Assembly (NCBI GenBank): GCA_017795005.1 | Contig: CP051242.1 | Span: 1,364,001-1,428,000 of the forward strand | Source of the DNA: Balneolaceae bacterium | GTDB taxonomy: Bacteria; Bacteroidota; Rhodothermia; Balneolales; Balneolaceae | DNA: 64,000 bases | Reading direction: 5' to 3' | In this document: piece by piece, positions 42,490 to 55,419 of the stretch | Position numbering within the stretch: the first letter of the stretch is position 1 | Layout: each line of letters begins with the position of its first letter | Made by a program: the position numbers and the translations under genes | Notes under the pieces: generated by a model | What the model was told of the DNA's origin: nothing | The model's database searches: none | Seen by the model: the letters and a program-made list of their open reading frames with translations, nothing else

Positions 42490-42804
42490 TTAAAAAGAAG
42501 GGACTACATCCTGTCTATACATGGTATCGAGTAGAGTAACTGTTACCATCAGTATGAAGAAGACCAGTGCTCCTATAAGAAGTAAGGAGTTGAATTTGGT
42601 ATCCCAGTACAATCCCATGAAGAAGGCAGCTACAAGATATGCTTTACCAAAAGCTATAACTAAGGCAGATATGATATCAAAAGGAGATGGTAGACCAAGA
42701 TTTGAAACCACTACCGTTAAGATAGTAAGTACAAATAATCCTCCACCAATCAACCAAAGTTGTTTAGCAGTAGCAACGTGATGTTCGTGATTGTGTTCGC
42801 TCAT
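42490..42804 (-). CDS. ctaF: Cytochrome c oxidase subunit IV (CtaF)
   Basis: A 104-residue protein with three TM helices (LWLIGGGLFVLTILTVVVS, SALVIAFGKAYLVAAFFMG, SLLLIGALVFFILMVTVTLL) and a His-rich N-terminus, typical of prokaryotic subunit IV. The ATG at 42804 is preferred over one at 42825 because the latter overlaps the ctaE stop and GAGAGG lies upstream of 42804. Last gene of the operon. Confidence 0.88.
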   Translation of the reverse strand: MSEHNHEHHVATAKQLWLIGGGLFVLTILTVVVSNLGLPSPFDIISALVIAFGKAYLVAAFFMGLYWDTKFNSLLLIGALVFFILMVTVTLLDTMYRQDVVPSF

Positions 42805-42817
42805 TGTCAAAAACCTC

Positions 42818-43483
42818 TCATTCAATTAAGTAAAGTAGTGGGAATAGGAAAATCCAGATCAAGTCAACCAAGTGCCAGTAAAGACCTGTGATTTCAACGG
42901 GGGTGTAGTATTCACTGCTGAAGTGACCTTTACCCGCTCGAATATAGAGCCAGATCATAAGACCAATACCGACTAATACGTGAAGTCCATGGACCCCGGT
43001 CATCATATAGTATATTCCAAAAAAGATATTAGCTTTTGGGTGACTTAGTTCTTCTAAGATCTCAGGAGTTGGATTCCAGAAAGATCCTGGTGCAATTCCC
43101 AGGTGTAATTTGTGCTCGTATTCGAAGTACTTAATCACCATGAACACACATGCAAGAGCAATGGTGATCAGAAGGTTAATCCGAAGGCCTTTGATCTGGT
43201 TCTTTTGAGCAGAACGGATAGCCATTGCAACCGTTAAACTACTACCAATAAGAACAATAGTGTTTACGCCTCCCCAGAGTTTGTTAAGTTCAAGCGCTGC
43301 CTGTGTAAACAGCTCGGGATACCAGGCTCTGAATACGATGTACGCACAGAAAAGCCCGCCGAAAAAGAGGATTTCGTTCACCAGGAATACCCACATTCCC
43401 ATCTTTGCCGATTCGAACTGTTGGTCTGAATCTACAAAATGGTGCTGAACATGAGCCGGGTGAGATGCTGAATGATTCGCCAT
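42818..43483 (-). CDS. ctaE: Cytochrome c oxidase subunit III (CtaE)
   Basis: A 221-residue heme-copper oxidase subunit III with five to seven TM helices. Visible landmarks: KMGMWVFLVNEILFFGGLFCAYIVFR, the conserved GVHGLHVLVGIG and YWHLVDLIWIFLFPLLYL at the C-terminus. An N-terminal His-rich segment precedes helix one. It lies between subunit I and subunit IV in the caa3 gene order. Confidence 0.95.
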   Translation of the reverse strand: MANHSASHPAHVQHHFVDSDQQFESAKMGMWVFLVNEILFFGGLFCAYIVFRAWYPELFTQAALELNKLWGGVNTIVLIGSSLTVAMAIRSAQKNQIKGLRINLLITIALACVFMVIKYFEYEHKLHLGIAPGSFWNPTPEILEELSHPKANIFFGIYYMMTGVHGLHVLVGIGLMIWLYIRAGKGHFSSEYYTPVEITGLYWHLVDLIWIFLFPLLYLIE

Positions 43484-43506: not shown

Positions 43507-45255
43507 TTAAGCTTTTTCTGTTTGATCGGTTTTAACTTCATGATGCTCGCCGTGACCATGTCCATTATGCTCAACCGCCAATCCAAGTTGAAATTCTTCC
43601 ATTGGTTTGTGGTAGTCGTATGGACCGTTGATTACAACAGGAGTGTGATCGAAGTTGTGGAAATCGGGAGGTGAGGTTGCCTGCCATTCTAATCCACGGC
43701 TGTTCCATGGATTCGCAGAAGCTTTTTCACCACCGAAAAGAGAACGTACTAAGTAGTACAGAATGATCAGGAATGCAGCTCCAAGAATATAAGATCCAAT
43801 GGTTGAAGTCTGGTGGAATGGCTGGAACTGATCGATATAATTGTAATAACGTCTTGGCATTCCCTGCGCTCCCATCACAAACTGTGGAAGGAAAGTCATA
43901 TTGAAGCCAATAAAGATCAATACAGCTGAAATCTTACCTAAGGTTTCGTTGTACATTTTACCAGTCATTTTTGGCCACCAATAATGCAGACCTGCGAGGA
44001 GTGCCATCAAGGTTCCACCCATCATTACATAGTGGAAGTGAGCAACTACATAGTATGTATCGTGCAAGTGAATATCTACAGAAAGAGCACCTAACATAAT
44101 TCCAGTAAAACCACCGATGGTGAAAAGGAATAAGAAAATGAATACGTACAACATTGGGGTTTTCATCTCTATGGAGCCTTTATACAAGGTAGCCACCCAG
44201 TTTAGAATTTTAATACCTGTTGGGATACCAACGAGGAAAGTAAGGAATGAGAATACAGTAGTTGCAACAGCACTTTGACCAGATGTAAACATGTGGTGTC
44301 CCCAAACAAGGAATCCAATGAATGCAATTGCTAAAGATGAAAGTGCAATCGCCCAGTATCCGAAAATGTGTTTTTTAGAGAATGTGGTAATTACTTCTGA
44401 AATAATTCCAAATCCTGGTACAATCATGATATATACTGCAGGGTGGGAGTAGAACCAGAAGAAATGCTGATAAAGCACTGGATCGCCACCTTTAGCCGGA
44501 TCAAAAATCCCGATATCCAAAATATTCTCCATTGAAAGAAGAAGAATAGTAATTGCAAGTACTGGTGTTGCCAATACCTGAATCACTGAAGTGGCATACA
44601 ATGCCCAGATATTAAGCGGAAGTTTATCCCAGGTAATACCTGGAGCTCTTAATTTGTGAATGGTCGTGATGAAGTTGGTTCCCGTCAAAATAGAAGAGAA
44701 TCCAAGAATAAATACCCCAAGGGTAACCCAAATCACACCAAGAGAGTTAGTATCTGAACTGTAAGGTGTATAGAATGTCCAACCAGTATCAAAACCATTG
44801 TTAGCAAGTGAAATAAAAGTGAACACTGCTCCAATTACATAGATGTAGAAACTAGCGAGGTTGAGGCGAGGGAAAGCCACATCCTTTGCTCCAAGCTGCA
44901 TCGGGAGTACAAAGTTTCCAAGAGCAGCAGGAATACTGGGAACTAACACGAAGAACACCATCATCGCACCATGCAAGGTGAATAATTGGTTGTAAGTGTC
45001 CGCTTCAATAAAAGTTTTAGCAGGAGTCCAAAGCTCAGTACGAAGAGCTATTGCAAGAAATCCTGCAAGTGCAAAGAAGAAAGCCACAGCAACCAGATAC
45101 ATAAGTCCGATTTTCTTGTGGTCAACCGTAGTCATCCAGGCCCAAACACCTTTTTCGTCTGTTAAATAGGTATTAGTTGGATTTTCAGAGGGTTTAAACC
45201 TCTTTACTTGTAGTGTTGTCATATTTTTTGATTGCGCTGCTGCCATATCACTCAA
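43507..45255 (-). CDS. ctaD: Cytochrome c oxidase subunit I (CtaD), A2-type caa3
   Basis: A 582-residue catalytic subunit with 12 or more TM helices that holds heme a, heme a3 and Cu[16 protein letters not shown] carries a heme a ligand; [20 protein letters not shown] carries the CuB histidine; WGHHMFTSG and [17 protein letters not shown] carry the remaining ligands. The Glu of the D-channel (GHPEVY in A1 enzymes) is replaced by the YSHP form, marking an A2-type oxidase as in Rhodothermus marinus caa3. The C-terminal tail is His-rich. Its start overlaps the end of ctaC by 8 bases. Confidence 0.96.
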
Positions 45256-46189
45256 GTGTTTTTATGTATTCAATAATATTTGTGATTTCATCATCGCTTA
45301 GAATTCCTTCATAAGGAGGCATGATGTTTTCATATCCATTAACAACCTTAGCTCCTGGATTGAGAATCGACTCTCTTAAGTAGTTTTCATCAACAGTCAG
45401 GGAGCTTCCATCATTTAATTGTTCTTCTTTACCAAACAGGCCTTTAAAAGTAGGGGCCAAGCCTGCGGAACCATCAACAGAGTGACATGTTTGGCACCCT
45501 TGTTGCACTACAAGTGCTTCACCCTGCTCAACTGGAGTTCCTGAAGGACCACCACCATTTAATTCAAGCCAGGTTTCAAAATCTTCAGGTTCATGAACAA
45601 TGATTTTAGCCAACATATCAGAATGGCTTGTTCCACAGTATTCGGTACAGAAAACTACAGATTCACCAACTTCTTCCGCCTGGAACCAAACATACGTATA
45701 ACGTCCAGGAACGGCATCGTGCTTTACACGGTAATCCGGAACAAAGAAGGAGTGTAGTACATCTCTTGATTGAAGTACGATTTTAACAGGACGCCCTTTA
45801 GGAACATGAATTTCATTTAATGTCTGAGCACCATTTTCGTAATTAACTGCCCAGTTCCATTTAAATCCTGTTACCTGAATTTCGTAGGCATCATCAGGGA
45901 CAGCTTTTAGGTTAAGCCAACCCGAGTATCCCCATCCGAAGATAACTAATGTGATTAGAAGTGGAATTACAGACCAGGTAATCTCCAATGTATTATTGTG
46001 AGTAATCAATGGAGTTTTGTCGTCTTCTGATTTACGCTTGTACTTAAAAGCGAAGTAAATTAAAGCGAATGTAATTCCTATAAGGAGGATTAAACTCACT
46101 TCATTGATGAAGTGAAAAAGCCCGTCGGTAGAATCTGCCGTAAGTGGAGATTTGTTTTCCGGGAGCATAAAATCGAATAGTCTGCCCAT
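45248..46189 (-). CDS. ctaC: Cytochrome c oxidase subunit II with fused cytochrome c (CtaC, caa3 type)
   Basis: A 313-residue subunit with two N-terminal TM helices, a cupredoxin domain with CuA ligands in [15 protein letters not shown] (C-x3-C...H...M), and a C-terminal cytochrome c domain whose heme motif is CQTCH. The fused heme makes it a caa3 subunit II. The cytochrome domain ([19 protein letters not shown] through IIEYIKTLE) is closely similar to the extra domain on ActE. It overlaps ctaD by 8 bases and abuts sco. Confidence 0.95.
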
Positions 46190-47022
46190 TATTGGAAGTC
46201 GATGTTAGAAGTTAGTTTTTTACCTTTTTTGCGAAGCCAAAAAAGGCTTAAGAAGATACCAAGAATTATTAGTGTAGCCAAGCCACCAATCTTCATAATA
46301 TTGATAGCAAGTGGTACATAACTGTTGGAATCTGGGTCATATTGATAGCAATACATCAGTACTTTTTCCAGGGTTGAGCCAATCTGCCCATCCGCCGATT
46401 CGTAAAGCGCATTACGTGCATCAAACTCATTGTATTGAATGCCATAGAGATAGCGGGTAATTTTTGCTTCCGGACTCAGCATAATTATTGCTGCACTATG
46501 TGCGAACTCGCCGGTACCTGCTACTTCATTATATTTGAAACCTACAGCATCAATTACTTTATCAATTTCTTTTTTTTCTCCGGTTAGAAAATACCAACCG
46601 TTATCTGGTATTTTTTTATCGAGCTTTGAGACATACTTAGTTCGGTATTCTTCGGCAAGCGTGTGATTTTCTTCGGGGTCAATACTTATTGAAATAATCT
46701 GATAGTCTTTTCCCGGCTGCCAGGCTAGTTCATCAGCAACATTTAACACTCCATCCAGAACAAGTCCACAAAGCATCGGGCATTCCAGATACATAGGATT
46801 AAGGATAACAGGTTTTCCTTCTTCCAAAAGTGAACCAATTGTTACACTATCTCCATTAGAGCTTGCAAATTTAGCGTCAAGTGGGATGTAGTCTCCCAAA
46901 TGTTCATCAATACCGACGCCTTGCAGTGCCTCCGGCTGTCCTTGATTTAGCTGTGCTACAGCGTTAAAGGGAAGAGAAAGCACTGCAAACAAATAAAAAG
47001 TACACAGTGCAATGCGTTTCAT
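46189..47022 (-). CDS. sco: SCO1/SenC family copper chaperone
   Basis: Inserts copper into the CuA site of subunit II. The 277-residue protein has a signal peptide (FYLFAVLSLPFNAVAQ), a thioredoxin-like domain with the CPMLC copper motif in YLECPMLCGLVLD, ISISIDPEENHTLA, and the conserved histidine in GTGEFAHSAAIIMLSP. An added C-terminal TM helix (IGGLATLIILGIFLSLFWL) anchors it. Its place directly before ctaC fits its role. Confidence 0.93.
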   Translation of the reverse strand: MKRIALCTFYLFAVLSLPFNAVAQLNQGQPEALQGVGIDEHLGDYIPLDAKFASSNGDSVTIGSLLEEGKPVILNPMYLECPMLCGLVLDGVLNVADELAWQPGKDYQIISISIDPEENHTLAEEYRTKYVSKLDKKIPDNGWYFLTGEKKEIDKVIDAVGFKYNEVAGTGEFAHSAAIIMLSPEAKITRYLYGIQYNEFDARNALYESADGQIGSTLEKVLMYCYQYDPDSNSYVPLAINIMKIGGLATLIILGIFLSLFWLRKKGKKLTSNIDFQ

Positions 47023-47029
47023 AAATAAA

Positions 47030-47416
47030 TTAATCTACAGCTATTTTTTCAATAGCATCATCAATTGGGATGTGGTAAACACCATCTTCTAAATCAACAA
47101 CACCAAATGAATTTAGCTGTTCATTCTGGTCAGCTCTTAATTTTGTTATTTCCATATAAGTGCTTGACTCAGACGCATTCCTTAATGCATTAGTGAAGCT
47201 GAATTGTGCAAAAAACATCAATGCTACAACAAAAACAATTACAGCAACGATTCCCAAACCTGACCAGAAAAATATTTTTCCATAGTCCATGGTATCGTCG
47301 TTAACCCCATGAGTAACAGCACCTGCAAAGAGTGTATCTTCTGTTTCAAGCGTTACTTCTTCTCCAGCTGCTTGTAAGACACGGGTTTTTGATTCTTCAA
47401 TGTGATCAGCAGACAT
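47030..47416 (-). CDS. Conserved one-TM protein between actF and sco, function unknown
   Basis: A 128-residue protein with one TM helix near residues 48-70 (FFWSGLGIVAVIVFVVALMFF), an acidic N-terminal tail and a C-terminal soluble part rich in acidic residues (NSFGVVDLEDGVYHIPIDDAIEKI). It is in the operon, 13 bases after actF and 7 before sco. I do not recognise a family. It may be an accessory or linker subunit of complex III or the oxidase. Confidence 0.6.
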   Translation of the reverse strand: MSADHIEESKTRVLQAAGEEVTLETEDTLFAGAVTHGVNDDTMDYGKIFFWSGLGIVAVIVFVVALMFFAQFSFTNALRNASESSTYMEITKLRADQNEQLNSFGVVDLEDGVYHIPIDDAIEKIAVD

Positions 47417-47429
47417 AGCTATTAATCAA

Positions 47430-48653
47430 TTATTGGTGATACGTTTTTTCGAGGCACTCATCCAGTTTCGGATCATTTTCAGGAATCATGCTGTTTTGTT
47501 TAAATCGGTTGAAGAACAACCAGAAGAATATTCCGCCTAAGCCTAAGAAGGTAGAGAAATCCATCCAGCTGAAGCTTAAACCATGAGCATCTTCAGAGTA
47601 AAAAGCAGGCTTTACAATCCAGTGTAGTTCGAAGAAATGGATAACCACAACTACAATCGCCACAAATGCAAGAACAGACCTTTTATGCTTTTGTTCTCTG
47701 TTTAATAATACCAGGAATGGAAGCGCAAATCGGAATAGCAGAAGTCCATATGCTATGTACTCATATCCTCCTTCAAGTCTGTGATAGAACCAAAGTGTTT
47801 CTTCCGGAAGGTTCGCGTAATAAATAAGTAGAAACTGGCTGAACGCGATGTATGCATAAAATACGGTGAATGCGAAAAGCCATGCACCCAGATCATAAAT
47901 ATGAGCTTGTCCAATGGTGTTTTTTAAGTATCCATTTCTGTGTAAGAAGAATACCATTAAAATCATGATTGCCCAGAAACTCTGGAAGCTGATTGCAAAG
48001 AAATAGACACCAAACATGGTAGAGAACCAGTGTGGATCTAATGACATCAACCAATCGAAACTTGCAAAGGCAATAGATAATCCAAAAATTGGAATTGCCG
48101 GAGCACTTACTTTTCTCATTAACGTAGTGATGCCCCAATCACCGGTTTTTTCCAGCTCTACAGAAGCTTTATACAGTTTATGGCCAACAAAGCCCCAAAT
48201 TGCGAAATAGATTACCTGGCGAATAATGAAAAAAGGGACATTTAAATACGCTTCTTTTTTTGCAACGATATAGTCAAAATTAGGTGAATTTGGATCGAAG
48301 AGGGTAGGGTCGGTCCAGTGATGGTATAGGATTGTCATTCCACCAAGAATAGGCAAGAATGCAATAGTCCACCATTTCATATTTGATCCAAAAGTTTCCG
48401 GAATTCTTCGGACAACCACACCCCATTTAGACTTTGTAATATGGTGGAACATTACCATAAAGATAGAAGCGAGTGCAATACCAGTAAAGAATACAAAGCT
48501 TACTAAATAAGAGAACAAAAATTGATCAGTATTTGTGTAAGCGCCAATTGCACTAAGGATCAGTCCAATAACACCAACTCCCAAAAGAACCTGAGGAATT
48601 TTGCTATCGGCTGAAAATTTTAAAGAATCTGTTATTGTTGGCTTATGACTCAT
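47430..48653 (-). CDS. actF: Alternative complex III subunit ActF
   Basis: A 407-residue, roughly ten-helix membrane subunit of quinol:cytochrome c oxidoreductase alternative complex III, related to NrfD/ActC. Landmarks include SYLVSFVFFTGIALASIFMVMFHHI, AFASFDWLMSLDPHWFSTMFGVYFFA and FWFYHRLEGGYEY. Follows actE by 24 bases, in the usual actA-F order. Confidence 0.93.
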   Translation of the reverse strand: MSHKPTITDSLKFSADSKIPQVLLGVGVIGLILSAIGAYTNTDQFLFSYLVSFVFFTGIALASIFMVMFHHITKSKWGVVVRRIPETFGSNMKWWTIAFLPILGGMTILYHHWTDPTLFDPNSPNFDYIVAKKEAYLNVPFFIIRQVIYFAIWGFVGHKLYKASVELEKTGDWGITTLMRKVSAPAIPIFGLSIAFASFDWLMSLDPHWFSTMFGVYFFAISFQSFWAIMILMVFFLHRNGYLKNTIGQAHIYDLGAWLFAFTVFYAYIAFSQFLLIYYANLPEETLWFYHRLEGGYEYIAYGLLLFRFALPFLVLLNREQKHKRSVLAFVAIVVVVIHFFELHWIVKPAFYSEDAHGLSFSWMDFSTFLGLGGIFFWLFFNRFKQNSMIPENDPKLDECLEKTYHQ

Positions 48654-48677: not shown

Positions 48678-49682
48678 TTAGTTATCGCTCAGCGTTTTAA
48701 TGTATTCTACCAGTGACTTAAGGTCAGCTTCAGAAAGAGATCCATAAGCGTTTGCCATAAGTGGATCGAATCCTTCAGTGACTTTTGCGTAAGGATTAAC
48801 GATAGATTCAATGATGTATTCATCATTTTTAGTTACCGTAATAGTTTCACCATCAGCAGTTACTACTTGTCCTTCACTTCCATACAGGTTTAACCAGCTT
48901 GGTCCAATTACAACTGAACCATCAAGAGAATGACACGTTTGACAAGCCCATTCGGTACTAACTTGTTTACCTCTTTCTGCAGTTGCTACAACTTCACCCT
49001 GACTGGCAGTTCGAGCTTCCTGAAGTTCTGCTAACCGTGCTTGTTCCGTTTCGTATTCAGCTTTTAGTTCATCAAGATCGACATCAAATTCTAAAATTTC
49101 ATCTTCAGTAGCGTTTTGACTAGCCTGAAGTGCCCTGATATATCCAACAATTGCCCAACGATCTTCTGTTTTAATCTGGTGGGCATATGAAGGCATGTTT
49201 CTTACCCCATTATAGATAGCAGAATAAATTTCTCCATCAGGTGCTTCTCTTAGTCTGTCTTGGTGGAAAGTAGGTGCTGGAACATATCCATAACCACCCG
49301 TCATAATTATTCCACGACCGTCACCGGTAATGCCATGACATGGAGTACAGTAGATTTCATACCGCTCTTTACCTCTGTAAAGGAAAGACTGAGTAAATTC
49401 AACCGGAGCGTCAGCAATCCATTCACCATCTTCATCAACTCCTTCATAATAAGCTAGATCAGCTTTTCTAAAGCCACGAGCAACCGTTCCTTCAACAGGT
49501 TGACGCATTGATCGTCCGTCTTCAAAGAAATTATTTTCTTCCTGAGCTTCCTTTCTTGGCTGTTGATCCATATTCATATTCGGGTGAATAGGAGTTTTTT
49601 CTGATGTAGTACCTCTACAACCAGCCAAAAATGCTCCAAGAACAAAAACTATAGCGATTTTTTTAATTCCGTTAGTGTTCAT
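48678..49682 (-). CDS. actE: Alternative complex III subunit ActE, diheme form with extra cytochrome c domain
   Basis: A 334-residue lipoprotein cytochrome. The ATG at 49682 gives a lipoprotein signal (KKIAIVFVLGAFLAGCRG, lipobox LAGC); an earlier ATG at 49751 would overlap actD and place about 23 odd residues before the signal. The first cytochrome domain has heme motif CTPCH and axial-ligand region VRNMPSYAHQI, the usual ActE. After a charged linker (DLDELKAEYETEQARLAELQ) a second domain with CQTCH follows, ending LKSLVEYIKTLSDN. That second domain closely resembles the C-terminal domain of CtaC and is not part of the usual monoheme ActE. Confidence 0.92.
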   Translation of the reverse strand: MNTNGIKKIAIVFVLGAFLAGCRGTTSEKTPIHPNMNMDQQPRKEAQEENNFFEDGRSMRQPVEGTVARGFRKADLAYYEGVDEDGEWIADAPVEFTQSFLYRGKERYEIYCTPCHGITGDGRGIIMTGGYGYVPAPTFHQDRLREAPDGEIYSAIYNGVRNMPSYAHQIKTEDRWAIVGYIRALQASQNATEDEILEFDVDLDELKAEYETEQARLAELQEARTASQGEVVATAERGKQVSTEWACQTCHSLDGSVVIGPSWLNLYGSEGQVVTADGETITVTKNDEYIIESIVNPYAKVTEGFDPLMANAYGSLSEADLKSLVEYIKTLSDN

Positions 49683-49707: not shown

Positions 49708-50256
49708 TTAGTCATACACTTCCTCAATATGTGTAGCACCTGCTTCTTCAAATAACTGGCGAACTAAGTCAGCCTGAAATTTACTATCAGTAGCTTCAAT
49801 ACAAACAAAGAAACCATCATCAGTAGCTTTTTTAAAGCGCTCTACATTAAATAGTGGATGATTTAAACGTGGTAGTCCATTTAAGAAGAACATACCAAAA
49901 ACAGCTCCAAATGCTGAAAGGAGAACAGTTAATTCAAATGTGATTGGCACCCAAGCCGGTGCATTAAAAAATGGTTTTCCACTAATATTAATAGGATAAT
50001 CAATTACCGACATGAAATACATCATGGCAATAGCTCCTGAAAAACCAAGAAGTCCATGACCAAGGACAATCCATCCCAGTTTTGATTTAGGAAGATTCAT
50101 TGCTTTATCAATCCCATGAATAGGGAAAGGGGCATAGGTGTCAAATTTATCATACCCAGCCTCAACAACTTTCTCAGAAGCATCGATTAATGCCTTTGGA
50201 TTCTTGAACTCGGCAAGAATGCCATATAATTCAGTGTTTTGATCGTTCGTACTCAT
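49708..50256 (-). CDS. actD: Alternative complex III subunit ActD (DUF3341)
   Basis: A 182-residue membrane protein with a soluble N-terminal alpha/beta part (YGILAEFKNPKALIDASEKVVEAGYDKFDTYAPFPIHGID, typical of DUF3341) and two TM helices (LGWIVLGHGLLGFSGAIAMMYFM and TFELTVLLSAFGAVFGMFFL), followed by NHPLFN and a small C-terminal part. Between actC (5 bases) and actE. Confidence 0.94.
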   Translation of the reverse strand: MSTNDQNTELYGILAEFKNPKALIDASEKVVEAGYDKFDTYAPFPIHGIDKAMNLPKSKLGWIVLGHGLLGFSGAIAMMYFMSVIDYPINISGKPFFNAPAWVPITFELTVLLSAFGAVFGMFFLNGLPRLNHPLFNVERFKKATDDGFFVCIEATDSKFQADLVRQLFEEAGATHIEEVYD

Positions 50257-50261
50257 ATTCT

Positions 50262-51689
50262 TTAAACCCTCTCAGCTTGAGGTTTAGGAACTTCCACTTC
50301 GTGTGGATGATATTCTTGTGTTTCCTCATCATAATTATGAGGATCAGCCTGTGGCATTACTGCTTTGATTTCCGCAATAGCAATCATTGGGAGGAAGCGA
50401 AGGAATGCGAGGAAGAATGTGAAGAAAATTCCGAAGGTTCCAACATAGGTTAACACGTCCCAGATAGTAGGGGAGAAGTAATCCCATGAAGACGGTAAAT
50501 AATCGTTGGCAAGTGATGTCACGGTAATTACAAATCGCTCGAACCACATACCAATATTAACTACAATTGATATAAAGAAGGTGAAATTAACATTCCTTCT
50601 TAATTTCTTTGACCAGAATACCTGAGGAGAAATCACATTACATAACATCATAATCCAGTAGGCCCATGCATAAGGACCTGTTGCACGAAGCATAAAAATA
50701 GCTTTTTCATATTCAACGCCACTGTACCAGGCAATAAAGAATTCCATCATATAGGCAAAACCTACCATAGACCCGGTAACCAAAATGATGATATTCATTT
50801 TCTCCATATGATCATCGGTCATAATATCTTCCATACCGTAAATTTTACGGCAGATTATCATAAGCGTCAGTACCATTGCGAATCCTGAAAATACAGCACC
50901 TGCAACGAAATAAGGAGGGAAGATAGTAGTGTGCCACCCTGGTATCATAGAAACTGCGAAGTCGAAGGATACAATAGTGTGTACTGAAAGTACCAGTGGA
51001 GTAGCAAGACCTGCAAGAATCATATATGCTTTTTCATAATTCCACCAGTTACGGCCACTTCCAGTCCAGCCAAGTGAAGCTATTCCATAAGCGATTTGAC
51101 GAACTTTGTCTTTAGCCTTGTCTCTTAGTGTAGCAAAATCAGGCACTAAGCCAACGTACCAGAACAATAGTGAAACAGTGAAATATGTAGAAACCGCAAA
51201 TACATCCCAAAGCAGAGGAGAGTTGAAGTTTGGCCACATTGCCATCTGGTTTGGAATTGGGAATACCCAATATATTACCCAGATTCGACCAACGTGGATA
51301 CCGGGAAACATCAACGCACAAATTACGGCAAAGATGGTCATCGCTTCCGCAAAACGATTAATCGCAGTACGCCAATCCTGTCTGAATAAGAATAAAATCG
51401 CAGAAATAAGCGTACCAGCGTGACCAATACCAACCCACCAAACAAAGTTGATAATCGCCCAACCCCAACCTACGGGGTTCATAAGTCCCCAAATACCGGT
51501 TCCTTCCCATATCAGGTAAGCAACAGCTACAAGGAAAACGCCCAAAAGCGCATTTGCAAGCAACATGGCTGCATACCATGGCTTCGGAGTAGGTCTTAAG
51601 TTTACATCAGTAACCAGTTTAGTGATGCTGGAAAAGCTATGATTGCCTTTTACGAGCGCTGGTTCAGGTATGTATTCGTATTTACTCAT
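50262..51689 (-). CDS. actC: Alternative complex III subunit ActC (NrfD/PsrC family)
   Basis: A 475-residue polytopic quinol-binding subunit with about ten TM helices. Seen: [48 protein letters not shown] and the double-tryptophan [31 protein letters not shown], all diagnostic of ActC. Its ATG shares a base with the actB stop (TAATG). Confidence 0.96.
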
Positions 51690-54600
51690 TAGTGGGCAGG
51701 TTCCATTTTAGTTTCGTCTACCAATGCCGGATTCGGGTTGGTCAATTTTGCGATGTAAGAAGTTCTTGGACGAACATTAAGTTCTTCAAGCATCAGATAA
51801 TTTCGTTCATTGCGCTTCATCTTAGTCACTTCGCTATTTTCATCGGTTAAATCACCAAAATAAATAGCATCTGCAGGGCAAGCTTGCTGACAAGCTGTAA
51901 CTACGGTACCATCAGCCGGTTTAGGAGAGCCGGTTTCAATTTTTGTATTGATTTTAGCTCTGTTAACACGCTGAACGCAATAAGTACATTTCTCCATAAC
52001 TCCACGGAAACGTACAGATACCTCAGGATTCATCGCCATTTGGATGATATCCGGATCTTCTCCGGTAGTTAAATACTCTTTTGGATAGTTGAAGAAGTTG
52101 AATCTTCGAACTTTGAATGGGCAGTTATTTGCACAATAACGAGTACCAATACAACGGTTATACGTCATTTGGTTCATTCCGTCATCACTATGGGTAGTTG
52201 CTGCAACGGGACAAACTTGCTCGCAAGGTGCCAATTCGCAATGCATACAAGGAACTGGTTGGTGAACTGCCTGTGGATCATGTTCATCACCCATATAATA
52301 ACGGTCATTTCTAATCCAGTGCATTTCACGGCCACGACCTACTTCTCGCTTTCCAATAACAGGAATGTTATTCTCACTTTGGCAAGCAATTACACAAACT
52401 CCACATCCAAAGCACGAGTTCAAGTCGATAGCCATACCCCATTGTGGTTCACTTTCAGGATAAGTTTGCTCGTTGAATAGCGATATAGGTTGATCTTCAC
52501 CTAACTCAGCAGCTTCTTTCATTCCTGGTACAGCATATTTGTGCACATACTTGAATGAAGCGTAGTCCGGTGTGTCTTTATACTTATTTAATGTAGCCTG
52601 ACGGTACATATCACGGCCTTCCAGACTGTGATGGTCCTGAACACAGGAAATAGAATAAGTACCGGATGCTTTTGAAACTTCTCCGGAAGTGTATAAAGAT
52701 GTATTTGAGTTACGAAGTGGATAAACATCAACACCACCTGCAGTAACTGTTTTGTCAAAAAGCTGAGAAGTATCGGAATCAACATCAGCTACTCTACCAA
52801 TACCTTCTCGTCCATATCCAACATTAAGTGTAATAGAATCATCAGCATGACCGGGCTGAATCCATGCTGCTATTTGAACAGCTTTGCCATTAACAGCAAC
52901 GTTAACCAAGTCTTCGTTTTCTACTCCTAAACTGGAAGCAGTAGCAGGACTCATTAAAGCAACGTTATCCCAGGTAATCTTTGTCATTGGGTCAGGAAGT
53001 TCCTGTAACCAACCAAGATTTGCGAATCTTCCATCATATACAGAAGCATCCGGTCTAATAACTATTTCAATTCCATCAACTCCTGAAGTCTGAGAAGGAG
53101 AAACAGAACGTAAACTTACTCGTGCTCTGCTGTAGCCATCTCTGATATCCAGCCCATCATGAAGGATATCTTTCCATCTGTTTTCGAAATTTCTACTGTA
53201 ATAACCTTTAAAAGTATTTTGAACTAACTCGTATCCTGAAACACGTTCTTCATATACAATAGCGTTCAGGAATTCAATTTCACTCATTGAATCATGCAAT
53301 GGCTGAATCTGAGGCTGAATTACAGAACGGGCGCCACCAAAAGAGAATCCATCACCCCATGATTCGAGGAAATGGGAACGGCTTACATGCCAGCTGGCGC
53401 CTTTTGAGCTTTCATCACGATACGTACCGAAGTGAATTACTTCTCCAACATTGCTTAATGCTCCTGAGAAATCAAGATCAGCTGGAGCAGTAAGCGAAGG
53501 ATTAGTTCCTATCATCACCACTGCATCAATGTTACCAGCTTTTATTTCAGTAACCACATCAGCAAAAACTTGTTTGTTATTCTGATTATCGAAAGAAGGA
53601 ACTTCAAGATAGTTTACAGTGCTTCCAACGTTATTTAGTGCACTGTTTATTGCAGCAACAATAGCATGTGCATTTGCAGAATGAGAAAAGCCAATAGAAA
53701 CAGCTGAACTACCAGTGTGGGAAGCGAGATCATCTGCCATTGCATTGATGAAATCACTACCGGTGAATTTGTTATTTACACCAGAGAATGCATTTAAACC
53801 ACTTATTTTGCTTGAAAGGGTGGCAGCTAAAGCATTAGCAAAAGCTTCAACTTCACTTGCCTTTACCCGAAGTCGGTGATCAGCAAAAGAACCGGTAAGT
53901 GTAAACCCGTTTTCTACTGAGTAGATACGGTTCATAGTGTCATTGGTGCTGGTTACTTTTCTTCTTCCGGTAACCTGCTTTGCATACTCTACATTATTAG
54001 GATGTGTAGCAGCCAGGAAATCATCGTCAAGAGATACAACTATATCGGCATTAGAGTAGTTGTAATGAGTTCTCAGACGTCTGCCAAAGGCAATTCTGTT
54101 TCCTTCAATATTATTGTCTTCCCCAAATGGCTCATAAGTCACCCATTTGGCATTATCAAATTTTCTAAGAGCTCCTTCTTTTAATGACTGAAAAGTAGGA
54201 GAGGAGTTAGCTTCAGAAATAAAAGCAACTCGCTTGTTTTGATCAGCAAAAAATTCCTGAGCGAAAACAACAAAATCATTAGTTGATGCTTTATCACCAT
54301 TTCTAAGAGGAGAACGTGAACGATCAGGATCGTACATTTCTAATATGGTAGCCTGATGATAGGCATTTGTATTACCCCAGCTTCCCGGGTGAAGGTCATT
54401 TCCTTCAACTTTAGTAGGTCTTCCTTCATGATTTTCTACAACCAATCCGGTTAAACTTCCCTGAAATGGCATAGCTGTTGCATAAAACAAAGGGATGCCC
54501 GGAACAATATCTTCAGGCTGCTGAGAATAAGGAAGAATTTTCTGAACAGGACGGCGGCAAGCAGCAAAACCTGCTAATGCAATAGATGCCCCCATAACCC

Positions 54601-54754
54601 GAAGGAATCCTTTTCGCGAAACGCCATCGGTTAATTCTGTAGCGTTCTCAGGGAACTCACGCTCTACAAAATTTTGATATTCTTTATTCTGAGCTAATTC
54701 GTTTAAGCTTTTCCAGTAGGTATTCTGTGTTACTTCGCTCATCTGGTGATGCAT
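51689..54754 (-). CDS. actB: Alternative complex III subunit ActB (iron-sulfur, molybdopterin-oxidoreductase-like)
   Basis: A 1021-residue subunit exported by a twin-arginine-like signal with an RK variant ([23 protein letters not shown], near residues 46-69). A molybdopterin-oxidoreductase-like domain without evident cofactor ligands covers most of the protein. The C-terminal ferredoxin part has four cysteine blocks: [48 protein letters not shown] and [12 protein letters not shown] with CQQACPADA, for four iron-sulfur clusters. The frame opens at a TTG at 54787, but ATG at 54754 with AAGGA upstream is preferred. Starts 20 bases after actA. Confidence 0.95.
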
Positions 54755-54774
54755 AGGTTCAAAATCCTTCGTTA

Positions 54775-55419
54775 TTAATAATGACAACCCTGGCAGTACT
54801 GCGGAGGGCTAACATTATTTTTCTTAACTAGTTCGCTTCCCAGTAAAATCTGGTCTTCTGCCTGATATCCCATAGTAGTCACTTCTTCAACCGGGCGCAG
54901 ATATTTTTCAGGTTCACGATGACAATCCAGACACCAACTCATGCTAAGAGGTTCTGCCTGGTAAACAACTTCCATTTTATCAATTCTTCCGTGGCAACTT
55001 TCACATCCAACACCCACATTAACATGAGCAGCGTGATTGAAATATGCATAGTCTGCTAAATTATTAACACGTACCCACTCAACAGCTTTGCCGGTTTCCC
55101 AACTCTCGCGAATAGGAGCTAATTTCTCACTATCTGTCTTAATCTGACTATGACAGTTCATACAAGTTTGAGTTGGAGGAATATTAGCCTGTTTTGACTC
55201 GAACACAGAAGTATGACAATACTGGCAATCCAAGCCAAGTTTATCTACGTGAATTTTGTGTGAGTAAGGAACAGGTTGAGTTGGAGCATATCCAACATCA
55301 GTATATTCAGGTGAGAAGAAGTACCAAATTCCAAGAATTACCACATTTGCAGTAACGATCAATCCAATAAGTAATTTTCGGGGAACTTGATTTGTCCACT
55401 TAGGGAAAATCTGCGCCAT
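54775..55419 (-). CDS. actA: Alternative complex III subunit ActA (pentaheme cytochrome c)
   Basis: A 214-residue membrane-anchored multiheme cytochrome with one N-terminal TM helix (LLIGLIVTANVVILGIWYFF) and five CxxCH motifs: CQYCH, CMNCH, CESCH, CLDCH and CQGCH, the last at the very C-terminus. PVPYSHKIHVDKLGLDCQYCH is typical of ActA. First gene of the respiratory operon, which runs 13 kb to ctaF. Confidence 0.96.
   Translation of the reverse strand: MAQIFPKWTNQVPRKLLIGLIVTANVVILGIWYFFSPEYTDVGYAPTQPVPYSHKIHVDKLGLDCQYCHTSVFESKQANIPPTQTCMNCHSQIKTDSEKLAPIRESWETGKAVEWVRVNNLADYAYFNHAAHVNVGVGCESCHGRIDKMEVVYQAEPLSMSWCLDCHREPEKYLRPVEEVTTMGYQAEDQILLGSELVKKNNVSPPQYCQGCHY

Follow-up and report, generated by a model that had tools for sequence, protein, structure and literature searches.

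A second, caa3-tail-type cytochrome c domain on the ActE subunit of alternative complex III in Balneolaceae

In Balneolaceae, the ActE subunit, by which electrons leave the respiratory alternative complex III (ACIII), consists of the usual ActE domain and a second, tethered cytochrome c that has been added to it. Whether complex III in ACIII systems hands its electrons to the oxidase through a diffusing carrier or through a built-in wire is still debated, and the two-heme ActE is a modest but clear variation, real and conserved, in the way the two complexes meet. An extra heme on ActE in a system whose oxidase retains its own cytochrome tail is a new variant; no report of a two-heme ActE was found in a search of the open-access literature. 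The most likely role of the added domain is that of a relay, and we lean towards a reading in which an ancestor gained it as an extra tethered step between ActE and the caa3 oxidase.

The genes described here lie in one operon of the window, by which we mean the whole stretch of 64,000 nucleotides that was analyzed (Table 1). Homologues of ActA to ActF occur in order, ActA has the five CxxCH motifs of the pentaheme subunit, and the gene order ActABCDEFG-SCO-CtaCDEF is preserved in relatives; a link between ACIII and caa3 in this organism is suggested by this operon adjacency. No Pfam-A match at E 0.01 was obtained for ActF or for the ActG-like protein. The actE gene has actD on one side and actF on the other, and a competing TTG start at 49751, preferred by the ORF listing, overlaps actD. 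The protein has the lipobox, the ActE-type N-terminal extension and the cytochrome c domain expected of an ActE, and the match to the Rhodothermus marinus subunit spans residues 36-220 of the TTG-start ORF. It departs from the single heme c of the ActE family in that two CxxCH domains are present in all sampled members of Balneolaceae.

Table 1. Features of the ACIII-caa3 operon in the window (positions are those of the window)
Feature	Position	Strand	Evidence and remarks
CtaF-like oxidase subunit	42490-42825	-	Orthologues in relatives (CtaE and CtaF-like together, 42490..43483)
CtaE oxidase subunit	42818-43483	-	Orthologues in relatives
CtaD, oxidase subunit I	43507..45255	-	TIGR02891 3.5e-206
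CtaC, caa3 oxidase subunit II (CuA domain and cytochrome c tail)	45248..46189	-	TIGR02866 8.4e-59, PF00116, PF00034
CtaC cytochrome c tail, homologue of the ActE C-terminal domain	45254..45532	-	Pfam (PF00034), BLASTP
SCO-family copper chaperone gene, between ActG and CtaC	46189..47022	-	Inferred from sequence and place in the operon; relatives have orthologues
ActG-like single-helix protein	47030..47416	-	Operon position; orthologues in relatives
ActF, ActC-like membrane subunit	47430..48653	-	Operon position; orthologues in place in relatives
ActE, two-heme cytochrome c lipoprotein subunit of alternative complex III	48678..49682	-	334 aa from ATG at 49682; lipobox LAGC, two CxxCH; best PDB match 6f0k_E
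ActE C-terminal cytochrome c domain, caa3-tail type	48687..48980	-	CQTCH 48930-48944; candidate axial Met309 in DPLMANAYG; PF00034; phmmer 1w2l; Foldseek 1w2l; BLASTP CtaC
Acidic, helix-predicted linker between the ActE heme domains, 46 residues	48987..49124	-	43-48 aa across 28 two-heme ActEs, sequence variable; helix 203-227 in model
ActE N-terminal cytochrome c domain (canonical ActE heme)	49128..49376	-	CTPCH 49335-49349; PF13442, PF00034 span; phmmer to R. marinus ActE 6f0k_E E 1.4e-68
ActD	49708..50256	-	PF11821 5.5e-67
ActC, NrfD family	50262..51689	-	PF03916 8e-27
ActB, iron-sulfur/molybdoenzyme-like subunit	51689..54787	-	Pfam, operon position
ActA, five-heme cytochrome	54775..55419	-	Five CxxCH in 214 aa; Pfam

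An earlier note on this DNA had described the second domain of ActE as nearly like the tail of CtaC, and the open reading frame, the two CxxCH motifs, the two cytochrome c domains found by Pfam and BLASTP all agree with that description. The BLASTP alignment of ActE with CtaC was confined to the C-terminal domain of ActE, where 41 of 97 positions were identical (42%, 79 bits, E 3e-21), while the N-terminal domain gave only 21.6 bits against the CtaC tail, and the resemblance is therefore far beyond chance. The strings that the note had quoted as shared or similar (CQTCHSLDGS, two longer stretches of 28 and 23 protein letters, and IEYIKTL) are all present. Since CxxCHSxDG(S/T) marks the caa3-tail-like cytochrome family as a whole, the exact match of strings is a trait of that family and no mark of a recent copy. 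Membership of the domain in this family is also seen in the domain tree discussed below, in a phmmer match to the solved cytochrome c domain of the R. marinus caa3 oxidase (1w2l) and in the predicted fold, as the modeled C domain aligned to 1w2l in Foldseek with a TMt of 0.87 and an rmsd of 2.1 over 98 columns at 42% identity. The AlphaFold2 model (32 family sequences) was confident for the C domain and had an overall pTM of 0.44, a combination that would fit domains that are mobile relative to each other.

The two-heme form is a property of the whole family. Of 92 family genomes searched (with Balneola, Gracilimonas, Fodinibius and Aliifodinibius in the set), ActE was detected in 86, and in every one of these the match ran to the end of the query and the protein had two hemes; the form was also found in a genome from another family of the same order (G343). 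The comparison reached the order, the class and the phylum, and in the loci read from two other families of the order (f2 and f3) and from the rest of the class, ActE had one heme and was mostly about 210-290 aa long, in the same operon and with a c-tailed CtaC. The statement that ActE is usually monoheme accordingly holds for the relatives examined outside the family and G343. Long ActE ORFs of 380-440 aa in other Bacteroidia were considered as further two-heme cases and rejected, as they are ActD-ActE fusions with one heme in the loci examined. Four loci from other members of the phylum (L048, L049, L050 and L056) combine such a fused ORF with a CtaC that has no c tail and with a monoheme cytochrome encoded by its own gene between ActF and SCO, so that the extra heme sits elsewhere.

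The origin of the second domain was addressed with a tree of 92 domains and 99 columns that included 25 family ActE C domains. These 25 formed a single clade (100/97) within the caa3-tail-like set, beside the CtaC tails, and the ActE N domains were split from all other domains at 100/100 on a very long branch. The two domains of the window are not sisters; each groups with its own orthologues across the family, and the acquisition is therefore at least as old as the family. The family-wide sorting of ActE C domains and CtaC tails by gene leads us to reject recent copying or gene conversion within this species. Duplication of the N domain within ActE is also an unlikely source, given that the C domain is about 40-55% identical to caa3 tails and the N domain has only the low score against the tail mentioned above; an approximately unbiased (AU) test with the N domain held next to the C domain (p 0.315) asks only where the outgroup attaches and was counted neither way. 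The family CtaC tails did not form one clade with the ActE C domains in the best tree, yet an AU test holding them together was not rejected (p 0.124). What stands of the proposed copying between CtaC and ActE is that both domains belong to the same cytochrome family, with which copying is compatible; they are not sister copies, and CtaC as the specific donor is unproven. The ActE C domain is thus of the caa3-tail type and old, and its donor could have been CtaC or another gene of the same cytochrome family.

The number of gains depends on G343. A tree of ActC, ActF, CtaD and CtaE supported the family (100) and f2 plus f3 (100) and placed G343 between them without resolution. The two-heme form may accordingly have arisen through one gain accompanied by a loss, through one gain on a common stem or through two gains. 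A single origin of the two-heme ActE of G343 and of the family was not rejected in an AU test (p 0.289), and the common tether (47 aa in G343 and 43-48 aa in the family) speaks for one origin. The Balneolaceae ancestor, perhaps together with another family of the Balneolales, would then have gained a caa3-tail-type domain at the C terminus of ActE.

The domain has since been kept under constraint. The CxxCH motif does not vary among the 25 C domains sampled from the family, each listed sequence has a methionine in the axial-ligand region that is a candidate partner to the histidine, and the spacing from CxxCH to CxxCH is 132-137 residues in the same 28 sequences over which the tether length is nearly constant. 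Comparison with two relatives gave dN/dS values of 0.04 and 0.13 for the ActE C domain and 0.06 and 0.11 for the CtaC tail, which are rough values with synonymous distances near saturation; the ActE C domain is under purifying selection, like the CtaC tail. It is also the least conserved of the three domains, with a mean identity of 50% compared to 60% for the CtaC tail and 70% for the ActE N domain. This variability would suit a role mainly as a structural dock or electron buffer for the ACIII-caa3 assembly, in which the C domain has no essential part in electron transfer. One-heme relatives have the same operon, and in Flavobacterium johnsoniae, electrons can reach aa3 even without ActE (PMC8552683), both of which point the same way. 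The invariant heme motif and the low dN/dS values argue against such a role, which we regard as very unlikely.

The net charges of the domains (-10.5 for the ActE C domain, -10.4 for the CtaC tail and +2.0 for the ActE N domain) bear on where the C domain might dock. They fit a C domain that is an acceptor look-alike and could dock on the N domain, but the like acidity of the C domain and the CtaC tail argues against simple electrostatic docking of these two; this acidity may, however, reflect a saline habitat. The C domain might thus dock on the ActE N domain or on CuA rather than on the CtaC tail. Its equal charge and common family membership with the CtaC tail are also what would be expected if it competed with or replaced that tail as an alternative entry at the CuA site, with one of the two redundant at any time. 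We find this quite unlikely, as both domains are retained in every intact operon seen, with intact heme motifs and under purifying selection.

The partner of the C domain was sought in the distribution of oxidases. Wherever the contig extends far enough, a caa3 tail accompanied the two-heme ActE, and the four family genomes without a match to the CtaC tail are cases of contig ends: in G050, the edge of the contig cuts through the CtaC core, in G048, the contig is 5.3 kb long, ActE is at the contig end in G088 and it ends 721 bases from it in G052. A two-heme ActE in a species without caa3, which would have spoken against the proposed connection, was hence not found where the contigs allow the check. 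One family genome (G084) has neither ActC, ActE nor the caa3 tail and has cbb3. Overall, cbb3 (ccoN over the curated cutoff) was found in 31 of 89 family genomes and was absent from many two-heme-ActE genomes that are at least 90% complete. The presence of the caa3 tail wherever contigs reach and the patchiness of cbb3 favor caa3 as the partner and disfavor cbb3 as a specific one, although ActE and caa3 are linked in one operon, so that their co-occurrence is weaker and less independent evidence than the numbers look.

No high-potential iron-sulfur protein (HiPIP) was found in the genome of the window organism, and scans with PF00034 and PF13442 did not find a typical small class I cytochrome c there. 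The scans returned ActE, CtaC, cbb3 subunits, peroxidase-like and multidomain proteins, and two CxxCH proteins of 143 and 227 aa. A secreted protein of the azurin family, which might serve as a soluble electron carrier, is encoded at L100:1366-1863 of the same genome (about 3.026 Mb). A carrier-free chain in this organism is plausible, but the earlier note's phrase "without a soluble carrier" goes too far with this azurin gene present. The same inventory, with a c-type cbb3 subunit, azurin, other cytochromes and no small class I cytochrome c detected, is what could make ACIII a branch point, with the C domain as a side exit to acceptors besides caa3 (cbb3, peroxidases, azurin or dehydrogenase-linked cytochromes). 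As most of the family genomes with a two-heme ActE do without cbb3, and with the caa3 tail found wherever contigs allow, this alternative appears unlikely.

Returning to the tethered relay, electrons would pass, as in known ACIII structures, from quinol to the FeS clusters of ActB, the five hemes of ActA and the heme of the ActE N domain. From there they would move to the tethered C domain, presumed to be loaded with heme, which would dock at or near the CtaC tail and deliver to the CtaC heme or to the CuA of the neighboring caa3. The C domain would in this way be a leashed carrier, shuttling on its tether and supplementing the direct link that a one-heme ActE already gives. The C domain is unnecessary for coupling, because one-heme relatives manage with the same caa3. 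Direct wiring, which the earlier note took the domain copying to suggest, therefore does not follow from the likeness: those relatives share the operon and the caa3 tail, and in R. marinus, one-heme ActE is reported to reduce caa3 directly, without a soluble carrier, in an ACIII-caa3 supercomplex (PMC5928083, PMC8552683). The claim adds nothing beyond what one-heme systems do. A stronger version, which we put forward only tentatively, is that an ACIII with its own leashed copy of the acceptor domain of the oxidase, on a tether of constrained length, makes up an obligate, carrier-free respirasome together with caa3, in which electrons would cross seven ACIII hemes in series ahead of the heme c of caa3.

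The operon logic, the five-heme ActA, the lipoprotein ActE and the c-tailed caa3 are all as in R. marinus (6f0k and 1w2l), but ActE has one heme in that species, and here a caa3-tail-type domain is fused to it on a tether of ~46 aa. In the F. johnsoniae ACIII-aa3 supercomplex (6btm), an additional cytochrome c domain is also found on ACIII; it is a mobile domain of ActA that replaces the c domain of the oxidase and is the proposed route of electrons to the oxidase (PMC5928083, PMC8552683), although this heme chain might not be universal (PMC8552683). In contrast to that system, where the extra domain is at the ActA N terminus and the oxidase tail has been replaced, it is on ActE here and the tail is kept; ActA in the window does not have the N-terminal sixth-heme domain of the F. 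johnsoniae kind, and that of relatives is also five-heme wherever the whole gene is present in the examined loci. The diheme QcrC (cyt cc) of the actinobacterial bcc-aa3 supercomplex wires complex III to the oxidase without a small cytochrome c (PMC8361435) and likewise is a complex III cytochrome subunit with two hemes, but it belongs to an unrelated bc1-type complex, and the QcrC model matches weakly, far under its curated cutoff. Caldithrix abyssi has extra monoheme capacity at the ActE position through duplicated ActE genes (PMC5317091), which are separate, unlike the single fused protein with a caa3-tail-type second domain found here. If true, a carrier-free respirasome in Balneolaceae would be an independent solution to the problem that actinobacteria meet with diheme QcrC and flavobacteria with the ActA extension. 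Balneolaceae with cultured strains, such as Gracilimonas and Fodinibius, are a natural case for removal of the putative relay domain with the canonical ActE heme untouched.

Across the relatives, extra heme c is placed at different sites: on the CtaC tail in Rhodothermia, at the ActA N terminus in F. johnsoniae according to the literature, in a cytochrome gene beside SCO in several Bacteroidia, on an extension of CtaF in two genomes of the Rhodothermia class and on both ActE and CtaC in Balneolaceae. The CtaF-like subunits with a fused C-terminal cytochrome c domain are at L046:1469-2176 (minus strand) and in L117 (9093, plus strand). At L058:9682-10056 (the same stretch as L142 of Fodinibius roseus) and on the reverse strand of L103 (G012), both in genomes of the Fodinibius group, a third caa3-tail-type cytochrome c ORF of 125-155 aa comes straight after the two-heme ActE; its longest frame has no clear signal peptide, and the start or frame is uncertain. 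Finally, caa3-tail-type domains are found at the C termini of large dehydrogenase-like proteins of up to ~980 aa in genomes of the family and the class (L104, L105, L106 and L107).
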